Below, one piece after another: positions 1-34,615 of a DNA stretch of 42,732 nucleotides. The translations under genes and the position numbers were made by a program. Below the pieces are notes generated by a model that was not told where the DNA came from, did no database searches, and saw only the letters and a program-made list of their open reading frames with translations. Source of the DNA: a virus. Positions within the stretch are counted from its first letter, which is position 1, and each line of letters begins with the position of its first letter. The stretch covers positions 1 through 42,732 of the IMG/VR virus record IMGVR_UViG_3300021142_000063; one strand, 5' to 3'.

Positions 1-1900
1 CAGGATCCATACCACACTCTGCCATAGCTTGTGCAATAGTACATTCTTTAAATCCAAAATCCATCTTAGTATCTAGTCTAGCACCGCACTCCATAGCTTT
101 GATCAATTTAGCTTTAAGTTTTGCCATACTACTACCTTCTGCAACAGGTGCAGGTTGTGCGGGAGCAGTCATATCGGGGGTCGCTGCTGGCATTGCTGAT
201 GCATCAGGTGCAGGAGCTGGCATTTCAGGTGCAGGAGCTGGCATTTCAGGTGCAGGAGTTGATGGAATCTTTTCTCCGCCAACTGGATTGTTTGAATCAA
301 TGTTGTCTAATTCTTTGCTGGCAATAATGTGCTGTGCAATTTCTTGTGCACCGGGAGCAAATGGTTCGTTGATCTTGTCATCAGCTAGGTCTGTAAGATA
401 CATCTTAATAGCAGTACCAACATCATCGTTATCAGTTAGCCCTTTTAAATATTCTTTAGTAAATACTTCACTATCAATAATACCCTTTAAGCTAAGAGCA
501 GCATTGATACCGTCAACCCCTGGCTGTAGCCCGCCTGCTAATAAATCTTTTAATTTATCAACTGCTTGTGCTTGTCTAGCAACATCCTTACTAAACAAAT
601 CATTGTGTCCTTCTGCACTTTCTACATCTTCACTAACAATGCTATCAAGGAATGCTTCAAATTGATTTTCATCTAAATCAAGAGATGCACCGAATTTCTT
701 TTCGCGCTTAAACTTAACACCTAAAGCACGGTCGGCTTTGTTTACTTTTGATTTGTCTAATTTTTCATCTTCTTCATCATCAAATGTAGATGGATTTTCT
801 TCGTAATCAGTTTTGGTATGTTTAATACCATGTTTTGTTTTTTCAACTTTACCACCCTTGTGTGTGGTGAATTCTTCTTCGTCCTCGCCAAGTATATCTT
901 CTGGCGATAATTCTTTAACTGGAATTTCACTCTCGTCTACTAGACGGAAAATGTATGGGAAGGCTGTACGTAATTCTTCATTGAATGTGCGAATTGTTAG
1001 TCGATCAATCCAGTCACTCATAATTTCTTCTGGAATCATTTGCTCTTCACGATCTTCAAATGACTCTGCAAATTGTTCGTAGTATGCTGGGCGTTGTAAG
1101 TTGTGGACTTCTTTTTTAACAGCTTCAATGCGTTCCATTACTTTAGTAGTAATATCGCCCATTGCTTCACTTAGTGTTTCGTTGCGGCTAACATAGCCTT
1201 TGAATTTGCGTAGCTGTGCCAACTCTTCTGATAAACTAGTGATATGTTTACCAATTGCATCGTATGGAATACCGCCATGCTTTAAATGTTCTGCTAGAGC
1301 ACGAGCACCATTGAGATGCTTGTATGGATATTTAAAACGCTCGCCTTGTGCATTTTCTACGTAGATACTTTCAATATGCATTGTACGACCGGCTGCTAGG
1401 TCAGTGTTAACTGGTTGGCTATGTTTGATGACCAAACGTGCTTCACCTAGATCTTGATAGCTAATTCTATTAGTACCGTATAGTTTACTTTCCATCATTG
1501 GAGTTTGTTGCATAACTGGTTCTTCCTTGGGCTTGGCTCTAAATGCATAATCACGTTTGTCTAATTGATCTTTTCCGGTATTTTGTACATCAAAATTTAA
1601 TAGGCGATCTTTGGCAAATTGTCTAAAACTGCGAATGAAATTAAATGCACCTGGATGTTTATGATCAGCTAGATTTCCACTAACTTCTAATACAACACCC
1701 TCATTTTCATCTAAGGTGATTGAAATTGTTCCTAGATTTTTTCCAGCTTCTTCATACTTAAATGAAAAGAAGCGAGCCTTAGGAATATCTGCTTTTCTAC
1801 TTAAAACAGTGCCATTTTCATCGCCTATTTCAATGTTAGGAAACCGTGTTTGTATTTTGCCATACAAATCTAGTGCTATTCTGTTTAAATTCGTGTTCAT
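1..1900 (-). CDS. Large virion-associated protein of unknown function, C-terminus beyond the window
   Basis: An open frame runs from an ATG at 1900 to the window edge (633 codons seen, no stop), so the C-terminus is missing. I do not recognise a named family. The first ~150 residues look globular. Residues ~230-310 are charged and probably helical. An acidic stretch (about residues 340-390, rich in D/E/K) follows, then a Pro-Ala linker at about residues 545-585 built from EMPAPAP units, and a Cys-containing segment (KAMECGARL, AMAECGMD) where the window ends. It is the gene after the large terminase in the same direction, starting 10 nt past the gp17 stop. A late-promoter box overlaps that stop and ends 4 nt before the ATG, with no Shine-Dalgarno. 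Late promoter and position among head and tail genes suggest a structural or head-associated role; this is inference. Confidence 0.75.
   Translation of the reverse strand, partial: MNTNLNRIALDLYGKIQTRFPNIEIGDENGTVLSRKADIPKARFFSFKYEEAGKNLGTISITLDENEGVVLEVSGNLADHKHPGAFNFIRSFRQFAKDRLLNFDVQNTGKDQLDKRDYAFRAKPKEEPVMQQTPMMESKLYGTNRISYQDLGEARLVIKHSQPVNTDLAAGRTMHIESIYVENAQGERFKYPYKHLNGARALAEHLKHGGIPYDAIGKHITSLSEELAQLRKFKGYVSRNETLSEAMGDITTKVMERIEAVKKEVHNLQRPAYYEQFAESFEDREEQMIPEEIMSDWIDRLTIRTFNEELRTAFPYIFRLVDESEIPVKELSPEDILGEDEEEFTTHKGGKVEKTKHGIKHTKTDYEENPSTFDDEEDEKLDKSKVNKADRALGVKFKREKKFGASLDLDENQFEAFLDSIVSEDVESAEGHNDLFSKDVARQAQAVDKLKDLLAGGLQPGVDGINAALSLKGIIDSEVFTKEYLKGLTDNDDVGTAIKMYLTDLADDKINEPFAPGAQEIAQHIIASKELDNIDSNNPVGGEKIPSTPAPEMPAPAPEMPAPAPDASAMPAATPDMTAPAQPAPVAEGSSMAKLKAKLIKAMECGARLDTKMDFGFKECTIAQAMAECGMDP
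207..260 (-). repeat. 21-bp in-frame tandem repeat coding a Pro-Ala linker
   Basis: Two perfect copies of a 21-bp unit (207-227 and 228-248) and a partial third (249-260) encode EMPAPAP-type heptapeptides inside the large protein. Being in frame and perfect at the DNA level, the copy number probably changes by slippage or recombination. It acts as a flexible linker between the acidic body and the Cys-containing C-terminal segment. Confidence 0.8.
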
Positions 1901-1904
1901 GTTA

Positions 1905-1912
1905 TATTTATC
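1905..1912 (-). promoter_or_regulatory. Late promoter box GATAAATA, 4 nt before the ATG
   Basis: On the minus strand the sequence reads GATAAATA, then TAAC, then the ATG at 1900. It matches the T4-type late box (TATAAATA, consensus NATAAATA) and overlaps the TGA stop of gp17. No Shine-Dalgarno lies between box and ATG. With T4 spacing the transcript would begin at or within one base of the start codon. Confidence 0.65.
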
Positions 1913-3509
1913 ACAAGCCTGTTGATATGTATATTGGCAAAGGAAGATCTAGTTCTTCTTCAGACCAGTCACTACTAACCTTTAAATGCTCAAATACTCT
2001 AGGATCCCACTCTGCTAGCATTACACTCATGCGTATTATCAATAATAGTGCAGCTACTAGATCGTCATGTTCCCCTACTTTTGCTTTAAAACTTGTACCG
2101 GCAGCAATATAGGTTTTAAGTTCGCTGATCAAAGGTCGGCTATTTAACGTCATCTTATCTTCTTCAATCAAGTACTTTACTTTGGCACACGCTGATATTT
2201 TGTTACCAAACGTAGTATTAAATCCTTTACGGAATTTCTTGACGTGCCCTTTGCGTAGGGGTTCTGATAGGAATAATCCCGGAAATGTTTCTTCGCCTAG
2301 ATTATCTATAACAACCAGTGCGCTTTCGCCTACCGTGTTATTTTCTACCGACCAATAAATGCTATCGTAGTTTTCAGAGCCAATTTCGTCTTGGATGTAC
2401 TTTAGGATATCCCGGAATATTTTAACCTGACCTTGTATAGGTGTTATATTATGTTGCCACTCTGCTACCTGGGTCATCGATGGCATTTCAAAAACTTCAA
2501 TAGCACCGTAGTCTCCACCTGTACCTAGGCTAGGATCTAATGCTGCTAGATAGATGTGTCCAGGTTCTGGTTTCTTGTACCAACGGACTTGTCCCATTTT
2601 AAACAAGGGTTCGCGTCCTGGTAGTTCTGCTAATTTTAGACTATTAATAAGCGTTTCATCGTAGACTAGGAATTCGCAACCATATTCACGGCGGAAACGT
2701 TCTTCACCGATACGTCCTAGCTCTACTGCTTTCCATTCGTCGCCGCGATCTGGATGTTCGAACCATTCTGCACGGAATCCGTGGAAACCGTTTTGTCCTA
2801 GTCCGTCAGTACGTTCATCACCGTATTCGTCAAATTTATTTTGACTGTCTTTCCAAATGATAGCAAACTCATCTTCGTCTGAGTTAGGTGTTGAGGTAAT
2901 AATTGCACGACCACCAGTTGCTAGTGTTGGTGAGATCGATGTCCAAAATTCTGTGGCAATATTAGGTTGCACAAAGGCAAACTCGTCGCAATAAAGCAGG
3001 GATATAGACATACCGCGGCCTGTGTTGCCAGTTGTTGTAGCAGATACAATTCTTGATCCGTTGTCAAAATCTATACTCCCTTTATTATAACTTACGACCC
3101 CTGCTCTAATATAGTCAGGGCATAATTCGTATCCATAGCGGATACGTTGCATAATTTCCTGTGAGCCTGTATATTTGTGTGCAGCCACTAGAATAGTTTG
3201 GTCTGGATGGAACATGGCAAACCAAAGTAGGTATGCTGATGCACATGTTGTCTTACCACTTTGACGTGGTAACATGTTAATATTGAAACGAAAATCATGG
3301 TAACTTTGTAGTAGGCGTTCTTGATACTCAAAAGGTTCAAATAACATCTTGCCTTTGACAGGATGCTGAATATGAAAAAAGTTTTTAGCAAAATGCTGAT
3401 ATCCGGTTTTTGGGTCAGCACAGGCCAACAAGTGCTGCACTTGCTCTTCTGTAAACTTTTCTTTTGTGTGTGACTTTTTAGTTAAGACACCGTCTAATGA
3501 TTTAGCCAT
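1911..3509 (-). CDS. gp17: Terminase large subunit (DNA packaging ATPase-nuclease)
   Basis: This is the T4 gp17-type packaging motor, 532 aa (T4 is 610). It hydrolyses ATP to pump DNA into the prohead at the portal and cuts the concatemer. ATPase motifs are visible: Walker A PRQSGKTT (residues 81-88), Walker B LLYCDEF (171-177) and the coupling motif TSTPN (205-209). The C-terminal RNase H-like nuclease has the expected acidic residues: D325 in ALDPSLGTGGDYG, E389 in SVENNT, and D482/D483 in GEHDDL. The gene lies directly downstream of a terminator hairpin, so it is probably transcribed from its own late box 5 nt before the ATG. No Shine-Dalgarno is seen. In T4, gene 17 precedes 18 and 19; here it lies downstream of both. 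Confidence 0.97.
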   Translation of the reverse strand: MAKSLDGVLTKKSHTKEKFTEEQVQHLLACADPKTGYQHFAKNFFHIQHPVKGKMLFEPFEYQERLLQSYHDFRFNINMLPRQSGKTTCASAYLLWFAMFHPDQTILVAAHKYTGSQEIMQRIRYGYELCPDYIRAGVVSYNKGSIDFDNGSRIVSATTTGNTGRGMSISLLYCDEFAFVQPNIATEFWTSISPTLATGGRAIITSTPNSDEDEFAIIWKDSQNKFDEYGDERTDGLGQNGFHGFRAEWFEHPDRGDEWKAVELGRIGEERFRREYGCEFLVYDETLINSLKLAELPGREPLFKMGQVRWYKKPEPGHIYLAALDPSLGTGGDYGAIEVFEMPSMTQVAEWQHNITPIQGQVKIFRDILKYIQDEIGSENYDSIYWSVENNTVGESALVVIDNLGEETFPGLFLSEPLRKGHVKKFRKGFNTTFGNKISACAKVKYLIEEDKMTLNSRPLISELKTYIAAGTSFKAKVGEHDDLVAALLLIIRMSVMLAEWDPRVFEHLKVSSDWSEEELDLPLPIYISTGL

Positions 3510-3514
3510 ACTGT

Positions 3515-3522
3515 TATTTAAC
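3515..3522 (-). promoter_or_regulatory. Probable late promoter box GTTAAATA before the large terminase gene
   Basis: The minus strand reads GTTAAATA, then ACAGT, then ATG at 3509. The core TAAATA is intact but the second base differs from NATAAATA. It lies between the terminator hairpin and the gene, where a new promoter is expected. The 5-nt gap and missing Shine-Dalgarno match the other close-box genes of the window. Confidence 0.45.
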
Positions 3523-3523
3523 G

Positions 3524-3551
3524 AAAAAAATAGACCCCGTAGGGTCTATTT
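3524..3551 (-). terminator. Intrinsic terminator after the 312-aa gene
   Basis: A perfect 10-bp stem (3528-3537 with 3542-3551, loop 3538-3541) is followed on the minus strand by a run of seven T (from 3524-3530). It lies 17 nt after the stop of the 312-aa gene and just before gp17, and so should end the operon that begins upstream with the 331-aa gene. Confidence 0.9.
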
Positions 3552-4507: not shown

Positions 4508-5130
4508 TTGATTGCTCCTTTAGCAGTAGGCACCTTGACTTGTTTTGTAAAAATATTTACTGGTTTTGTTTTTACATTAACTTGTTTGCCTGGGGTTTCT
4601 TTACTGTGCTGTGGAGCACCAGAGGCTAAAATTTCATCGTTGTAGCCTTTAACTTGTTCGCCTTGATGCTTTTCTTTGTTTAATTCTTTTAGAAAACTCA
4701 TCTTGTATTCTTCACCAACTAGGTCTTGATTATCACTTTTTTCATAATCTGTGCCAATTAATGCTTCACCGGTACGTTGATCATTTGCGTGATTAATTTC
4801 GTGTTCACGTTCTTCTGCTAGACTTTTAACTTTAACACAACTATGTGAAAGTCCTAAGCCACTAGCTACTAAGTCTTGAACTTGTAGGCTAGTTGCGGGA
4901 TAATTTGTAGTGACATCGAATACTGACATACTAACATTTTTGTGTTCTGGAAATTCCGAATGACGTTCCTGGATCGGTGTACGTTTACCTGCTGAAACAG
5001 TAGCAACATGAAATTGTGCCAATGCACCTTTGATTTGTGCTGAGCAATCTTCTGGACAATCTCCAGCAATTTTTACTTTAAATTCGTAAACTTTTTTGCT
5101 TTCTGTTAAGTATTCTTTAAATGATTTCAT
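4504..5130 (-). CDS. Putative prohead-targeted protein with a T4-type capsid targeting sequence
   Basis: A 208-aa protein whose first ten residues, MKSFKEYLTE, match position by position the capsid targeting sequence of T4 internal proteins (MKTYQEFIAE). They end in an LxE motif of the kind cut by the T4 prohead protease gp21. By analogy it would be packed into the prohead core and trimmed after E10. The next part (residues ~15-105) looks like a compact domain with several Cys (GDCPEDCSA and a Cys near residue 98). The rest is charged and Lys-rich with a basic tail, which would suit DNA contact inside the head. The function of the mature part is unknown. It has its own late promoter box 18 nt before the ATG and an AGGA ribosome site, and overlaps the next gene by 4 nt. 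Confidence 0.85.
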   Translation of the reverse strand: MKSFKEYLTESKKVYEFKVKIAGDCPEDCSAQIKGALAQFHVATVSAGKRTPIQERHSEFPEHKNVSMSVFDVTTNYPATSLQVQDLVASGLGLSHSCVKVKSLAEEREHEINHANDQRTGEALIGTDYEKSDNQDLVGEEYKMSFLKELNKEKHQGEQVKGYNDEILASGAPQHSKETPGKQVNVKTKPVNIFTKQVKVPTAKGAIK

Positions 5131-5148: not shown

Positions 5149-5156
5149 TATTTATT
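5149..5156 (-). promoter_or_regulatory. Late promoter box AATAAATA for the capsid-targeted protein
   Basis: The minus strand has AATAAATA overlapping the last codon and stop of the small terminase gene. An 18-nt stretch containing AGGA follows before the ATG at 5130. This is the conventional leadered type of late promoter, allowing the 208-aa and 312-aa genes to be expressed above the level of the upstream operon. Confidence 0.7.
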
Positions 5157-6448: not shown

Positions 6449-7444
6449 TTAGAATCCTGTTAACTTGGTTATTGATGCCACTGATGTTGAGGTAGATGCA
6501 GCATTAGATAACGGAAAAGATATTCCAGATAATCCGCCCGGAGTTTGATTGTTTGTAATGTTTATTAATCCAGGAGTGCCGCTAACAGCAAGTGGCTGTT
6601 GGGTATTCTGTGCGGAATTAATTTGATTTAATGCATTCTGAATAAATGCAGGTGCATGCTGTTCGATATCTAATGATGTAGCAAAACTTGGTCCGGAAAC
6701 CGGAGTTGGTGGATCTAGAGGACTTGTTGTTGAGTCATAATGTGTTAGACCAAAACCCTCTGGAGCATCTGCGGTTACTTGTCCAACATCGTAACTCACA
6801 GCTTCATATTGTATTTTCATATCAAAATCATGAGGCTGTTGTGTTTGTGAATAATCAACGCGATTATGATTCCAAGAACTGATAATAGGATTATACAACT
6901 GATACATCACATACTCGTGACGAGCCATTTGATAGATTTTAATATATTTAAAAAATGGCACAGTACTTCCGTTATCAAACCCATAATTACCGACGATGTA
7001 ATTGCTACTCTGCATAGCATTTCTGTTGTATGCACCTGTCTGTTTAGCAGTTCTCGAATCTGCATAGTAGTAGCTATAGTAATTTTGCCAAACTTGATTA
7101 ATTAATCCCATGTTATCATCATGAAACTTCATGCTAATTTCACCAGGTCTATGTTGATATTGTACCCATTTTTTTCTATTATACTGATTAAGCATTTCTG
7201 TTGAGACAGTATAATTAGGTAGATCAACTGCCTTAACTAACATGTTGATTTCTTGTCCGTATCGTTGAACAATATCTGCGTTCGCCAATGCTGAAGTGTT
7301 GATTCCAAATGCTACATGGAATAAGAATTTGCTCTTAGGAGCAAGACGAAATTGATCGGCATTAAACAGGTCAGCAGCATGTTGCCAATCACGCAGGTGC
7401 GTAGTTGGATTAGAGCTTAGACTAGAGTTAGGTGCAAATCCCAT
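6449..7444 (-). CDS. Second tail-tube-like structural protein
   Basis: A 331-aa protein following gp19. The core (about residues 30-240) shows the layout of tube-fold proteins: a beta-rich start (FRLAPKSKFLFHVAF), a segment on coordinates and displacement (VKAVDLPNYTVSTEMLNQYN, then EISMKFHDDN), and a closing strand (FDMKIQYEAVSYDVGQV). A Pro/Ser/Asn-rich tail follows. In T4 the tube fold recurs in the baseplate cap proteins gp48 and gp54, so a tube initiator or tube-end protein is possible; a specialised tube subunit is the alternative. It lies after the gp19 terminator with its own late box 5 nt before the ATG and no Shine-Dalgarno, and heads the operon continuing to gp4 and gp16. Confidence 0.6.
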   Translation of the reverse strand: MGFAPNSSLSSNPTTHLRDWQHAADLFNADQFRLAPKSKFLFHVAFGINTSALANADIVQRYGQEINMLVKAVDLPNYTVSTEMLNQYNRKKWVQYQHRPGEISMKFHDDNMGLINQVWQNYYSYYYADSRTAKQTGAYNRNAMQSSNYIVGNYGFDNGSTVPFFKYIKIYQMARHEYVMYQLYNPIISSWNHNRVDYSQTQQPHDFDMKIQYEAVSYDVGQVTADAPEGFGLTHYDSTTSPLDPPTPVSGPSFATSLDIEQHAPAFIQNALNQINSAQNTQQPLAVSGTPGLINITNNQTPGGLSGISFPLSNAASTSTSVASITKLTGF

Positions 7445-7449
7445 AATAT

Positions 7450-7457
7450 TATTTATT
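7450..7457 (-). promoter_or_regulatory. Late promoter box AATAAATA, 5 nt before the ATG
   Basis: The minus strand reads AATAAATA, then ATATT, then ATG at 7444, directly downstream of the gp19 terminator. No Shine-Dalgarno is present. With T4 spacing (box at -13 to -6) the A of the ATG would be the first transcribed base. Confidence 0.65.
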
Positions 7458-7492
7458 TAAATAATAATGTACGTAGTTAATGATCAGTCAAT

Positions 7493-7516
7493 AAAAAGCC
7501 TACCGAAGTAGGCTTT
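7493..7516 (-). terminator. Intrinsic terminator after gp19
   Basis: On the minus strand a 9-bp stem AAAGCCTAC/GTAGGCTTT encloses a UUCG tetraloop and is followed by TTTTT, 3 nt after the tail tube stop. The UUCG loop is especially stable and is the classic form in T4 terminators. It separates the sheath/tube unit from the next operon. Confidence 0.93.
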
Positions 7517-11565: not shown

Positions 11566-11573
11566 TATTTATG
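11566..11573 (-). promoter_or_regulatory. Late promoter box CATAAATA for the sheath gene
   Basis: The minus strand has CATAAATA 33 nt before the gp18 ATG, with the ribosome site GGAGA between them. This is the leadered type of late promoter, and it should transcribe gp18 and gp19 up to the terminator at 7493. Confidence 0.75.
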
Positions 11574-11642: not shown

Positions 11643-11650
11643 AATAAATA
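11643..11650 (+). promoter_or_regulatory. Late promoter box AATAAATA for the HNH endonuclease gene
   Basis: The plus strand has AATAAATA 27 nt before the ATG at 11678, followed by AAAGG ribosome-site sequences. It is divergent from the sheath promoter 70 nt away. The mobile gene thus carries or has captured a phage late promoter and can be expressed against the direction of its neighbours. A five-codon reading frame (11668-11685) precedes and overlaps the start. Confidence 0.6.
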
Positions 11651-11677: not shown

Positions 11678-12397
11678 ATGACTGAAGACATAATTAATAA
11701 CAAATATAAACGATGGTATGATTCGTTAATTGATCATGCAATATGCCGCCAAGCAACCCCTTCAATATTAACAGAAACACATCATATAATACCTAGAAGT
11801 TTAGGTGGCACAGATGATGGAAAAAACTTAGCAGTTTTGACTCTTCGAGAACACTATGTTGCTCATTTATTATTATCAAAAATGTTAAGTGGTGGGAGCG
11901 CAGTTAAAATGGCACATGCTTTAAAACTAATGTCAGGAAATCAAAAATACTATAAAAATGGATTTAATTCAAAGAAATATGAATTAGCAAAATCATTAAT
12001 TAGAAAAATTTATCAAACAGCCGGCCAAGAATATCAGGCCCAGACTGCTATCCAAAGCAATGTATTATCAGAATATACTGATCTAGAAAAAGTATATAAA
12101 CGGGGAGTTTGTAAAATTTGCAAGATAGAACCGAGAGCAGTTAATTATATAAAAAATGGCAAGACTTATTATAGGTCGAAATGCGAAAGTTGCCAAATTG
12201 GTAAGGTACGAATTGCTACACCTAAGTGGGTATTTGACGGGTATCAAAAAGGAGATGTCTGTGAAATTTGCAATTTTAAATCTAAATTTCGAGAACAATT
12301 AACAGTTATATCAAATAACAAAAAATATAAGACTATTTGTTTAAATTGCCAGGTTGCTGTTAAATTGACTCCACCAAAACCGGCTCCCGATTTATAA
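11678..12397 (+). CDS. Free-standing HNH homing endonuclease with two C-terminal zinc ribbons
   Basis: A 239-aa nuclease of the HNH superfamily, the kind that spreads between T4-like genomes by cutting uninfected alleles. The catalytic core is near the N-terminus: ETHHIIPRSLGG (H35, H36), N50 in GKNLAVL, and H59/H63 in REHYVAH. After a Lys-rich linker come two similar CxxC...CxxC units: C145/C148/C169/C172 and C195/C198/C221/C224. These are probable zinc-binding modules for DNA recognition. The gene lies on the strand opposite to its neighbours between gp18 and gp1, appears more AT-rich, and ends 2 nt from the convergent gp1 stop. No split gene or intron is seen, so it looks intergenic. Target site unknown. 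Confidence 0.9.
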   Translation: MTEDIINNKYKRWYDSLIDHAICRQATPSILTETHHIIPRSLGGTDDGKNLAVLTLREHYVAHLLLSKMLSGGSAVKMAHALKLMSGNQKYYKNGFNSKKYELAKSLIRKIYQTAGQEYQAQTAIQSNVLSEYTDLEKVYKRGVCKICKIEPRAVNYIKNGKTYYRSKCESCQIGKVRIATPKWVFDGYQKGDVCEICNFKSKFREQLTVISNNKKYKTICLNCQVAVKLTPPKPAPDL

Positions 12398-15332: not shown

Positions 15333-15340
15333 TATTTATC
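15333..15340 (-). promoter_or_regulatory. Late promoter box GATAAATA for gp13
   Basis: The minus strand has GATAAATA 18 nt before the gp13 ATG, with TAAGGAG between. This is the leadered half of a divergent late promoter pair; the opposite box begins only 5 bp away. Confidence 0.75.
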
Positions 15341-15344
15341 TAAC

Positions 15345-15352
15345 GATAAATA
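15345..15352 (+). promoter_or_regulatory. Late promoter box GATAAATA, 4 nt before the gp14 ATG
   Basis: The plus strand reads GATAAATA, TCAT, then ATG at 15357. There is no Shine-Dalgarno. The start is fixed by the family N-terminus MPRLSLYKPEKGND, so transcription with T4 spacing would begin at the start codon. Confidence 0.7.
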
Positions 15353-15356
15353 TCAT

Positions 15357-16823
15357 ATGCCACGTTTATCACTCTATAAGCCCGAAAAGGGCAATGATTA
15401 CAAGTTTATCGATCGCCAAGCTAGCGAGATGTTTCAAGCTGGTGGTACTGATGTATATTTACACAAGTATTTAGGTGCAAATACAGACACCTCAAATGCT
15501 TCTGCTGATCAGCCTAATTATGCGTCAACTGCGGTGACAAATATTCAAGATTTGTTATTCTTAGAAAATCGCGATCGCAAGTACGATCAAGAAATCTACA
15601 GAATTCGCGGTATGTACAATGTACAAAATATCGATTTTAATCTAAGTCAATTTGGTTTGTTTATTGATAATGATACGCTGTATATGACAGTACATATTAA
15701 CGATTTTATCAAGTACATCGGTCGTAAACCGATCAGTGGAGATGTTATAGAGCTTCCGCATTTGCGTGATGACTTTGCCTTAAACGATTTTGACATTAGT
15801 CTACCACGTTATTATCAAATTACAGATGTAGGACGTGCCAGTGAAGGATTTTCAGTAACTTGGTTTCCACATTTATACAGATTAAAATTAACTAAGATCA
15901 CAGATAGTCAACAGTTTGCTGATATCTTTAATAAACCTATGCTGGATGCTAATGGCGATCCAGTTGTTGGCGGTAGTCCAACACTTAAAGATCTACTCAG
16001 TACCTACAACAAAGAAATTGAAATTAATAATCAAATTGTTGCTCAAGCAGAAGCAGACGCACCATTAAGTGGTTATGAGACTCGTCAATTCTATACACTA
16101 GCAGTTGATCCTAATACTGGAAAACCAGTTCTAGAAACAGCAGATGAAAGCACCTTAGATGCTAGCCAGATGTCCTATAAAGCTAACGACAATAATGCTC
16201 GACCTGTACGTACCGGTTACACTGGTTATTTGATCGGAGATGGTTTTCCGCAGAACGGTTACGATTTTGGATTTGGTATTCAATTCCCTGAAGCACCGGG
16301 GGTGGATGATTTCTTCCTACGCACTGATTTCTTTCCAAATAGACTATTCCGATATGATGGTCCAAGCAGTGCCTGGGTTAAGGTCGAAGACTCGGTACGC
16401 ATGACAATGACCAATAACGACACTCGAGCTACACAGAAAACTGGATTTATTAATAATACAAATTACACATATAATAATCAAGTGGCTACTGACTTGATTG
16501 AGCTAACACAAGGTCAATCAGTTATCAATACTAGAATTTTATACTCTACAGCAGAAGGCGCTGCCTATGTAGTCATTAAACAGGGAGTCACTCGATTAGA
16601 ATATGCTGTTAGTGATTATCCAGCAATCACAGGCGGGTATAATGGAATATTATACTATACACTGACTAACGGGCACTACGACTTACAAATCAATTTACCA
16701 ACAATTGATGGAACTCAACAAGTCATACCTTTTGCGGGTCAATGGACAATAACGCTATATAACACAAGAGATGAACAAAGACAAAGTCTAAGTAAGGCGC
16801 TTAAACCAAGGGCGGATCTATAA
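15357..16823 (+). CDS. gp14: Neck protein
   Basis: A 488-aa homologue of T4 gp14 (256 aa), in the long form I associate with marine T4-like phages. It sits with gp13 at the head-tail junction. Recognisable blocks are MPRLSLYKPEKGNDYKF, LFLENRDRKYD, FNLSQFGLFIDNDT, the SGDVIELPHL segment, SEGFSVTWFPHLYR, and the C-terminal FFLRTDFFPNRLFRYDG and RQSLSKALKP. A ~100-residue stretch around residues 385-470 is an extra beta-rich domain (TRILYSTAEGAAYVVIKQG onward) before the conserved end. A late box ends 4 nt before the ATG and no Shine-Dalgarno is seen. The gene overlaps the start of gp15 by one base (TAATG). Confidence 0.93.
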   Translation: MPRLSLYKPEKGNDYKFIDRQASEMFQAGGTDVYLHKYLGANTDTSNASADQPNYASTAVTNIQDLLFLENRDRKYDQEIYRIRGMYNVQNIDFNLSQFGLFIDNDTLYMTVHINDFIKYIGRKPISGDVIELPHLRDDFALNDFDISLPRYYQITDVGRASEGFSVTWFPHLYRLKLTKITDSQQFADIFNKPMLDANGDPVVGGSPTLKDLLSTYNKEIEINNQIVAQAEADAPLSGYETRQFYTLAVDPNTGKPVLETADESTLDASQMSYKANDNNARPVRTGYTGYLIGDGFPQNGYDFGFGIQFPEAPGVDDFFLRTDFFPNRLFRYDGPSSAWVKVEDSVRMTMTNNDTRATQKTGFINNTNYTYNNQVATDLIELTQGQSVINTRILYSTAEGAAYVVIKQGVTRLEYAVSDYPAITGGYNGILYYTLTNGHYDLQINLPTIDGTQQVIPFAGQWTITLYNTRDEQRQSLSKALKPRADL

Positions 16824-34607: not shown

Positions 34608-34615
34608 TATTTATC
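34608..34615 (-). promoter_or_regulatory. Late promoter box GATAAATA for the giant fibre operon
   Basis: The minus strand has GATAAATA 20 nt before the ATG of the 3725-aa gene, with AGAGGAA between. No terminator is seen for the next 14 kb, so the transcript may run through the 110-aa, S74, three collar, 93-aa and 109-aa genes. Confidence 0.75.

Follow-up and report, generated by a model that had tools for sequence, protein, structure and literature searches.

Late transcription in phage T4 is a textbook system, and T4 late genes carry leaders. In the viral DNA of 42,732 nt analysed here (the window), boxes of the T4 late-promoter type end either 18–33 nt or only 4–5 nt before a start codon. 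This arrangement raised the question whether the late mRNAs of the second group begin at the start codon itself and are translated without a leader.

The freshwater phage from which the window derives is a jumbo member of the T4 superfamily, a placement based on its gene content (terminase, a 1122-aa tail sheath, tube proteins, a gp14-like adaptor and a homing endonuclease) and on tblastn matches to Pseudomonas phage PA5oct (52%), Sinorhizobium phage Phosso (50%) and Agrobacterium phage Atu_ph07 (53% over 80% of the query).

Late boxes in the window

The window contains eight copies of the heptamer ATAAATA, whereas shuffling predicts 18.4. Each copy precedes a gene start on the correct strand by no more than 33 nt, and the heptamer is depleted elsewhere in the window. 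The T4-type 8-bp box NATAAATA is present at all eight sites, as well as in relatives. Promoters of this type have the box roughly one helical turn ahead of the transcription start and lack a conserved -35 element. The window box is that of T4 with the first base free and, as in T4, lies upstream of late structural genes; however, nearly all T4 gaps measure 12–35 nt and none of the T4 boxes stands 4–5 nt from a start codon. The window boxes precede genes of structural type (terminase, tail sheath, tube-like protein, head-tail adaptor and virion proteins), and these genes are called late on the basis of gene type. A homologue of the gp55-type late sigma was detected in a large relative, contig G001 (phmmer E 2.3e-7; iterated profile), and none was found within the 42,732 nt of the window itself.

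Five boxes are separated from the start codon by a leader-sized gap, measured from the end of the box, and an SD-like (Shine-Dalgarno-like) sequence is present at all five starts. Four of them are on the minus strand: 5149..5156 (18 nt before the gene starting at 5130; SD AGGA), 11566..11573 (33 nt before the tail sheath gene, start 11532; SD GGAG), 15333..15340 (GATAAATA, 18 nt before the gp14 gene, start 15314; SD AAGGAG) and 34608..34615 (20 nt before the gene for a 3725-aa protein, start 34587; SD AGAGGA). The fifth, on the plus strand at 11643..11650, ends 27 nt before a PHROG-assigned homing endonuclease gene (11678-12397), which is flanked by the sheath and dNMP kinase genes and has this leadered late box to itself.

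At four other starts, hereafter close-box starts, an SD-like sequence is absent in all cases. Three of these, at 1900, 7444 and 15357, follow an ATAAATA box. On the minus strand, the box GATAAATA at 1905..1912 ends 4 nt before the ATG (1898-1900) of a 633-aa open reading frame for a virion structural protein (2..1900, PHROG 13484), which runs off the window; this box overlaps the TGA stop of the preceding gene, encoding the large terminase gp17 (1911..3509, minus strand, 532 aa, PHROG 36964, E 1.4e-125). The gp17 gene itself has a weaker variant box, GTTAAATA (3515..3522, minus), 5 nt before its ATG, and an intrinsic terminator hairpin (3524..3551, minus; stem TAGACCC/GGGTCTA with a T-tract) ends 1 nt upstream of that box. 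Also on the minus strand, the box AATAAATA at 7450..7457 ends 5 nt before the ATG of a gene for a tube-like tail protein (6449..7444, 331 aa), and between this box and the tube gene upstream of it lies that gene's intrinsic terminator (7492..7516, minus). On the plus strand, a further copy of GATAAATA (15345..15352) ends 4 nt before the ATG of the gene for a 488-aa virion structural protein (vsp; 15357..16823, PHROG 11591). The mRNAs of all four genes are predicted to be leaderless. The first-pass annotation had divided the late boxes of the window into five at 18–33 nt with an SD and four at 4–5 nt without one, and the listing of boxes and gaps bore out this division.

The boxes of gp14 (leadered) and vsp (close-box) stand back to back within 15333-15352 with only 4 bp between them, an arrangement that recurs in many relatives. 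Simultaneous occupancy of these two promoters is probably not possible.

In the wider jumbo group, an ATAAATA late motif, the same heptamer as in the window, has been described upstream of structural genes of phage CBB; the part of that report considered here gives no classes of start-codon spacing for CBB (PMC5259590).

Spacing in relatives

Relatives of the window number in the hundreds in IMG/VR, whereas a search for the phage's own genome yielded the window alone. By homology to window genes, 232 loci were fetched and dereplicated to 116 (1.45 Mb); here, gaps were counted between ATAAATA and any ATG that begins a frame of 100 or more codons. In these counts, which are dominated by orthologues because the loci were fetched by homology and which are not independent observations, gaps were distributed bimodally: 155 boxes at 4–5 nt (73 at 4 nt and 82 at 5 nt), with 15 at 7 nt, and a leadered mode with 111 boxes at 15–19 nt and 40 at 32–33 nt. 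Gaps of 0–3, 6 and 8–14 nt together accounted for 5 boxes, and a gap of 6 nt did not occur with ATAAATA.

Orthologues of the window genes, counted per family as distinct upstream sequences, retained the spacing of their class. The box with a 4-nt gap was present in 61/61 homologous loci of the 633-aa gene, TAAATA with a 4–5-nt gap in 53/56 relatives at gp17, and a 4–5-nt gap in 62/63 relatives at the tube-like gene. At vsp, the gap was 4–8 nt in 54/60 relatives (4–5 nt in 27, 6 nt in 3 and 7 nt in 23). Close-box spacing remained fixed among orthologues down to approximately 45% identity. Leadered genes kept their longer gaps: 29–35 nt with an SD in 51/54 relatives at the sheath gene, 16–18 nt at gp14, and 16–19 nt in 69/69 relatives at the 5130 gene. 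Loss of the fixed spacing in homologues had been named beforehand as evidence against a leaderless class; no such loss was seen at the 633-aa, gp17 and tube-like genes, whereas the vsp gap was often 7 nt.

A fifth close-box family, located outside the window, encodes an HNH-like protein of 108 aa; its box, TTAAATA, lies 4–5 nt before the ATG (loci L005, L007, L019, L085 and others). Most copies of this family also have one or two AAAAAGG motifs just upstream of the box.

Seven large contigs were scanned gene by gene. ATAAATA with a gap of 4–5 nt was found at 12 genes in G001 (345 kb), 10 in G002 (265 kb), 3 in G003, 7 in G005, 5 in G006, 3 in G007 and 3 in G008. Each of the seven had both classes, with 6 to 34 genes at gaps of 14–35 nt and none at a gap of 6 nt. 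A second peak at 4–5 nt with SD depletion, as predicted from the window, was thus seen in the 116 loci and in the large relatives, as well as in the pelagiphage lineage described below.

With GC contents of 33–42%, AT-rich upstream sequences of these genomes might hold TAAATA near an ATG by composition. However, ATAAATA stood 4–5 nt before an ATG 11 times in G001 and 10 times in G002, versus means of 0.95 and 0.30, respectively, for the other 20 anagrams, and Pelagibacter phage HTVC008M had 12 genes with TAAATA at this distance versus at most one for any anagram of TAAATA. Depletion of ATAAATA elsewhere in the window and the fixed spacing among orthologues also oppose an origin by composition. 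The anagram controls ruled out chance, leaving it a negligible probability, in agreement with the initial view that a 4–5-nt gap at four genes is hard to explain in that way. The conserved spacing class is real, and its conservation implies selection.

Translation signals and transcript starts

An SD was present at 0/169 close-box orthologues (gp17 0/53, tube-like 0/62, vsp 0/54) and at all leadered orthologues of the sheath gene (51/51) and gp14 (22/22), tallies whose members, being orthologues, are not independent observations. In the 633-aa family, 7/61 homologues had SD-like letters, with TAGGATAAATA overlapping the box. Pooled over G001, G002, G003, G005 and G007, SD-like sequences were found at 2/35 close-box versus 66/96 leadered genes (Fisher p 5e-11). 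The start codon was ATG in all 54 close-box vsp genes and in all 35 close-box genes of the five large relatives.

Some homologues have switched between the two arrangements. Leadered vsp homologues, in five or six relatives, have gained an SD, their start codon being TTG, GTG or ATT, and three gp17 homologues without the box carry an SD instead. In loci L166 and L230, ATT, preceded by a strong SD, is the apparent start codon of the vsp homologue; L166 also has an ATG 4 nt past the box, from which a mini-ORF of 6 codons extends through this SD.

Since the close-box starts are predicted and not protein-sequenced, the true starts might be located downstream, each with its own SD. In the window, however, the start codons are those from which relatives and cultured phages align at residue 1, several of these with an SD placed for exactly that codon. 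Leadered vsp genes of relatives, PA5oct, Atu_ph07, Phosso and Vibrio phage 2.275 have an SD for the same codon, and GenBank starts of HTVC008M agree at the 11 genes with a 5-nt gap. Incorrect start calls were rejected on these grounds as highly improbable; gene identities fix the close-box starts, as had been argued from the window.

Terminator-like hairpins were found upstream of the start in 53/56 relatives at gp17 and 61/63 at the tube-like gene, versus 0–1 per gene at the leadered sheath, gp14 and 5130 genes. With terminators just upstream of gp17 and of the tube-like gene, upstream transcripts are an unlikely source of a leader. The upstream neighbour of vsp is the divergent gp14 gene.

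The absence of a terminator between gp17 and the 633-aa gene, together with a gp17 stop codon that overlaps or nearly touches the box, suggests another possibility at 1900, already raised in the first-pass annotation: translation of the 633-aa gene from gp17 mRNA by re-initiation, with the box serving some other purpose. The distance from box to ATG was, however, 4 nt in 61/61 loci, whereas that from the gp17 stop to the ATG varied (7, 10, 12 or 13 nt). Moreover, each of the other three close-box genes is preceded by a terminator or by a divergent gene. Read-through from gp17 as the sole mechanism is therefore improbable, although coupling may act in addition to the promoter.

The T4 late box, TATAAATA, occupies positions -13 to -6 and its use depends on gp55, gp33 and gp45 (Geiduschek and Kassavetis 2010, PMC2988020). 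As that box begins at -13 and ends at -6, a gap of 5 nt places the A of the ATG at +1. In leadered promoters of the freshwater clade, A is enriched (62%) at the fifth base after the box, the same place as the predicted +1. T4 geometry, spacing, its conservation and SD loss together make it very likely that the close-box late mRNAs are leaderless and start at the ATG, both the start site and the mode of initiation being deduced. The suggestion of a leaderless late class, originally drawn from the fixed gap in the window, gained support from orthologue spacing, SD loss, terminators and the natural switches between arrangements. In the proposed mechanism, a box 15–35 nt upstream would yield an mRNA with a leader and a Shine-Dalgarno sequence, while at close-box genes host RNA polymerase with the gp55-type late sigma would start RNA at the A of the AUG or no more than one nucleotide away. 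Ribosomes would then initiate on the 5'-terminal AUG without a Shine-Dalgarno sequence.

Transcripts might instead start 1–4 nt ahead of the ATG, with a tiny SD-less leader and initiation by proximity of the AUG. Late promoters may be flexible by 1–2 nt in where transcription starts, and a gap of 7 nt, which could mean a leader of 1–3 nt, is common at vsp (23/60) and also occurs at a few genes in G001 and G002. Against such near-leaderless transcripts, gaps of 4–5 nt dominate and a gap of 6 nt is almost empty (0 in the 116 loci; 3/60 at vsp), and in HTVC008M the gap is exactly 5 nt at 11 of 12 genes. This alternative is considered unlikely, and initiation on such transcripts would still be SD-independent and AUG-first.

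Predicted folding of the first 30 nt was slightly weaker for close-box than for leadered genes (-0.46 versus -1.18 kcal/mol, p 0.02); over the first 40 nt there was no difference. A pyrimidine at -1, tried as a start-site signature, was suggestive in several families; in G001 and G002, however, close-box (17/22) and leadered genes (32/48) did not clearly differ, and the pyrimidine was not used as proof.

A second lineage and comparison with known systems

Pelagibacter phage HTVC008M contains 14 occurrences of TAAATA-N5-ATG. Counted gene by gene, 11 genes have a gap of exactly 5 nt and one a gap of 4 nt. Among the five-nt genes are those for the DNA end protector, head closure, tail tube cap, baseplate wedge, tape measure and tail completion proteins; gp2, gp4, gp53, gp54 and the tape measure gene are among the close-box genes. 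The gp2 and gp4 genes diverge, and just 26 bases, which contain both boxes, separate their start codons. Among HTVC008M relatives in IMG/VR, the 5-nt gap at gp54 was found in 27/27 loci of at least 42% identity, and leadered spacing (21–26 nt) only in relatives of approximately 32–34% identity. Although HTVC008M shares the close-box class with the freshwater clade, it belongs to the Kyanoviridae and its gene set is largely different, on which basis the two classes are probably independent in origin.

ATAAATA at 4–5 nt was absent in T4 and Syn9 and in the examined parts of the jumbo relative 121Q (140 kb), Atu_ph07 and Phosso, and TAAATA-N5-ATG was absent in Cr30, phiM12 and phiM9, T4-superfamily phages of Alphaproteobacteria. 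PA5oct has three close-box genes, two with ATG.

The lambda cI mRNA is leaderless. To our knowledge, leaderless examples in phages are single genes, whereas the close-box class comprises approximately 5–20 late genes per large genome, with a phage-specific late sigma. Leaderless T4-type late genes as a genome-wide class were not found in the published literature, searched in open-licence papers. Late promoters and leaderless mRNAs are each known; as far as found, their combination as a genome-wide class is new.

In bacteria, leaderless mRNAs have been surveyed in silico (PMC3160421), and leaderless initiation strongly prefers an AUG start (PMC9031893). Like the close-box genes, bacterial leaderless genes lack an SD and prefer AUG, with a -10 element approximately 10 nt before the ATG. 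Caulobacter crescentus has many leaderless mRNAs (375 reported), which it translates efficiently, and 171 have been reported in Sinorhizobium meliloti (PMC4117421). An alphaproteobacterial host of the freshwater phage is conceivable, and these leaderless mRNAs would fit it. A close-box gene common to G001 and G002 has its best similarity to alphaproteobacterial sequences (Henriciella, Hellea, 57%), and G002 contains what looks, by eye, like an aminolevulinate synthase gene. As a sufficient cause of the class, an alphaproteobacterial host was rejected: Cr30, phiM12 and phiM9 are without TAAATA-N5-ATG, and Atu_ph07 and Phosso, in the parts examined, are without the class.

Ribosomal protein bS21 is encoded by G001, G002, PA5oct, Atu_ph07, Phosso and Vibrio phage 2.275 (L326-L335), and is reported in HTVC008M and pelagimyophages as well. 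It, too, was rejected as a sufficient cause, since PA5oct, Atu_ph07, Phosso and Vibrio phage 2.275 encode it yet lack or nearly lack the class. Phage IF3 was rejected as a cause because it is present in phages where the class was unseen (Atu_ph07, Phosso, 121Q and Vibrio phage 2.275) and was not found in G001 or G002. A broader scenario is offered as a rather doubtful speculation: leaderless late transcription might have arisen at least twice in alphaproteobacterial T4-superfamily phages, with phage bS21 biasing late ribosomes to 5'-AUG messages and creating two translationally distinct late classes.

If the leaderless reading is correct, two modes of translation initiation would operate within one temporal class, at essential genes such as terminase, and could set how much of the assembly proteins is made, or when. 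Close-box promoters would be missed by gene finders and late-promoter scans that expect a leader. This may be the reason for the failure of late-promoter prediction in pelagimyophages, reported in a study that does not use the word leaderless (PMC7029224). HTVC008M and Pelagibacter constitute a cultured phage-host pair with the close-box class.

Among close-box and other late proteins of G001 and G002 (L241-L272), many have similar N-termini (MRVLDIL, MRISELL, MQIKDII, MKVKEIL, MRANEFT), which resemble T4 capsid-targeting sequences of internal proteins.
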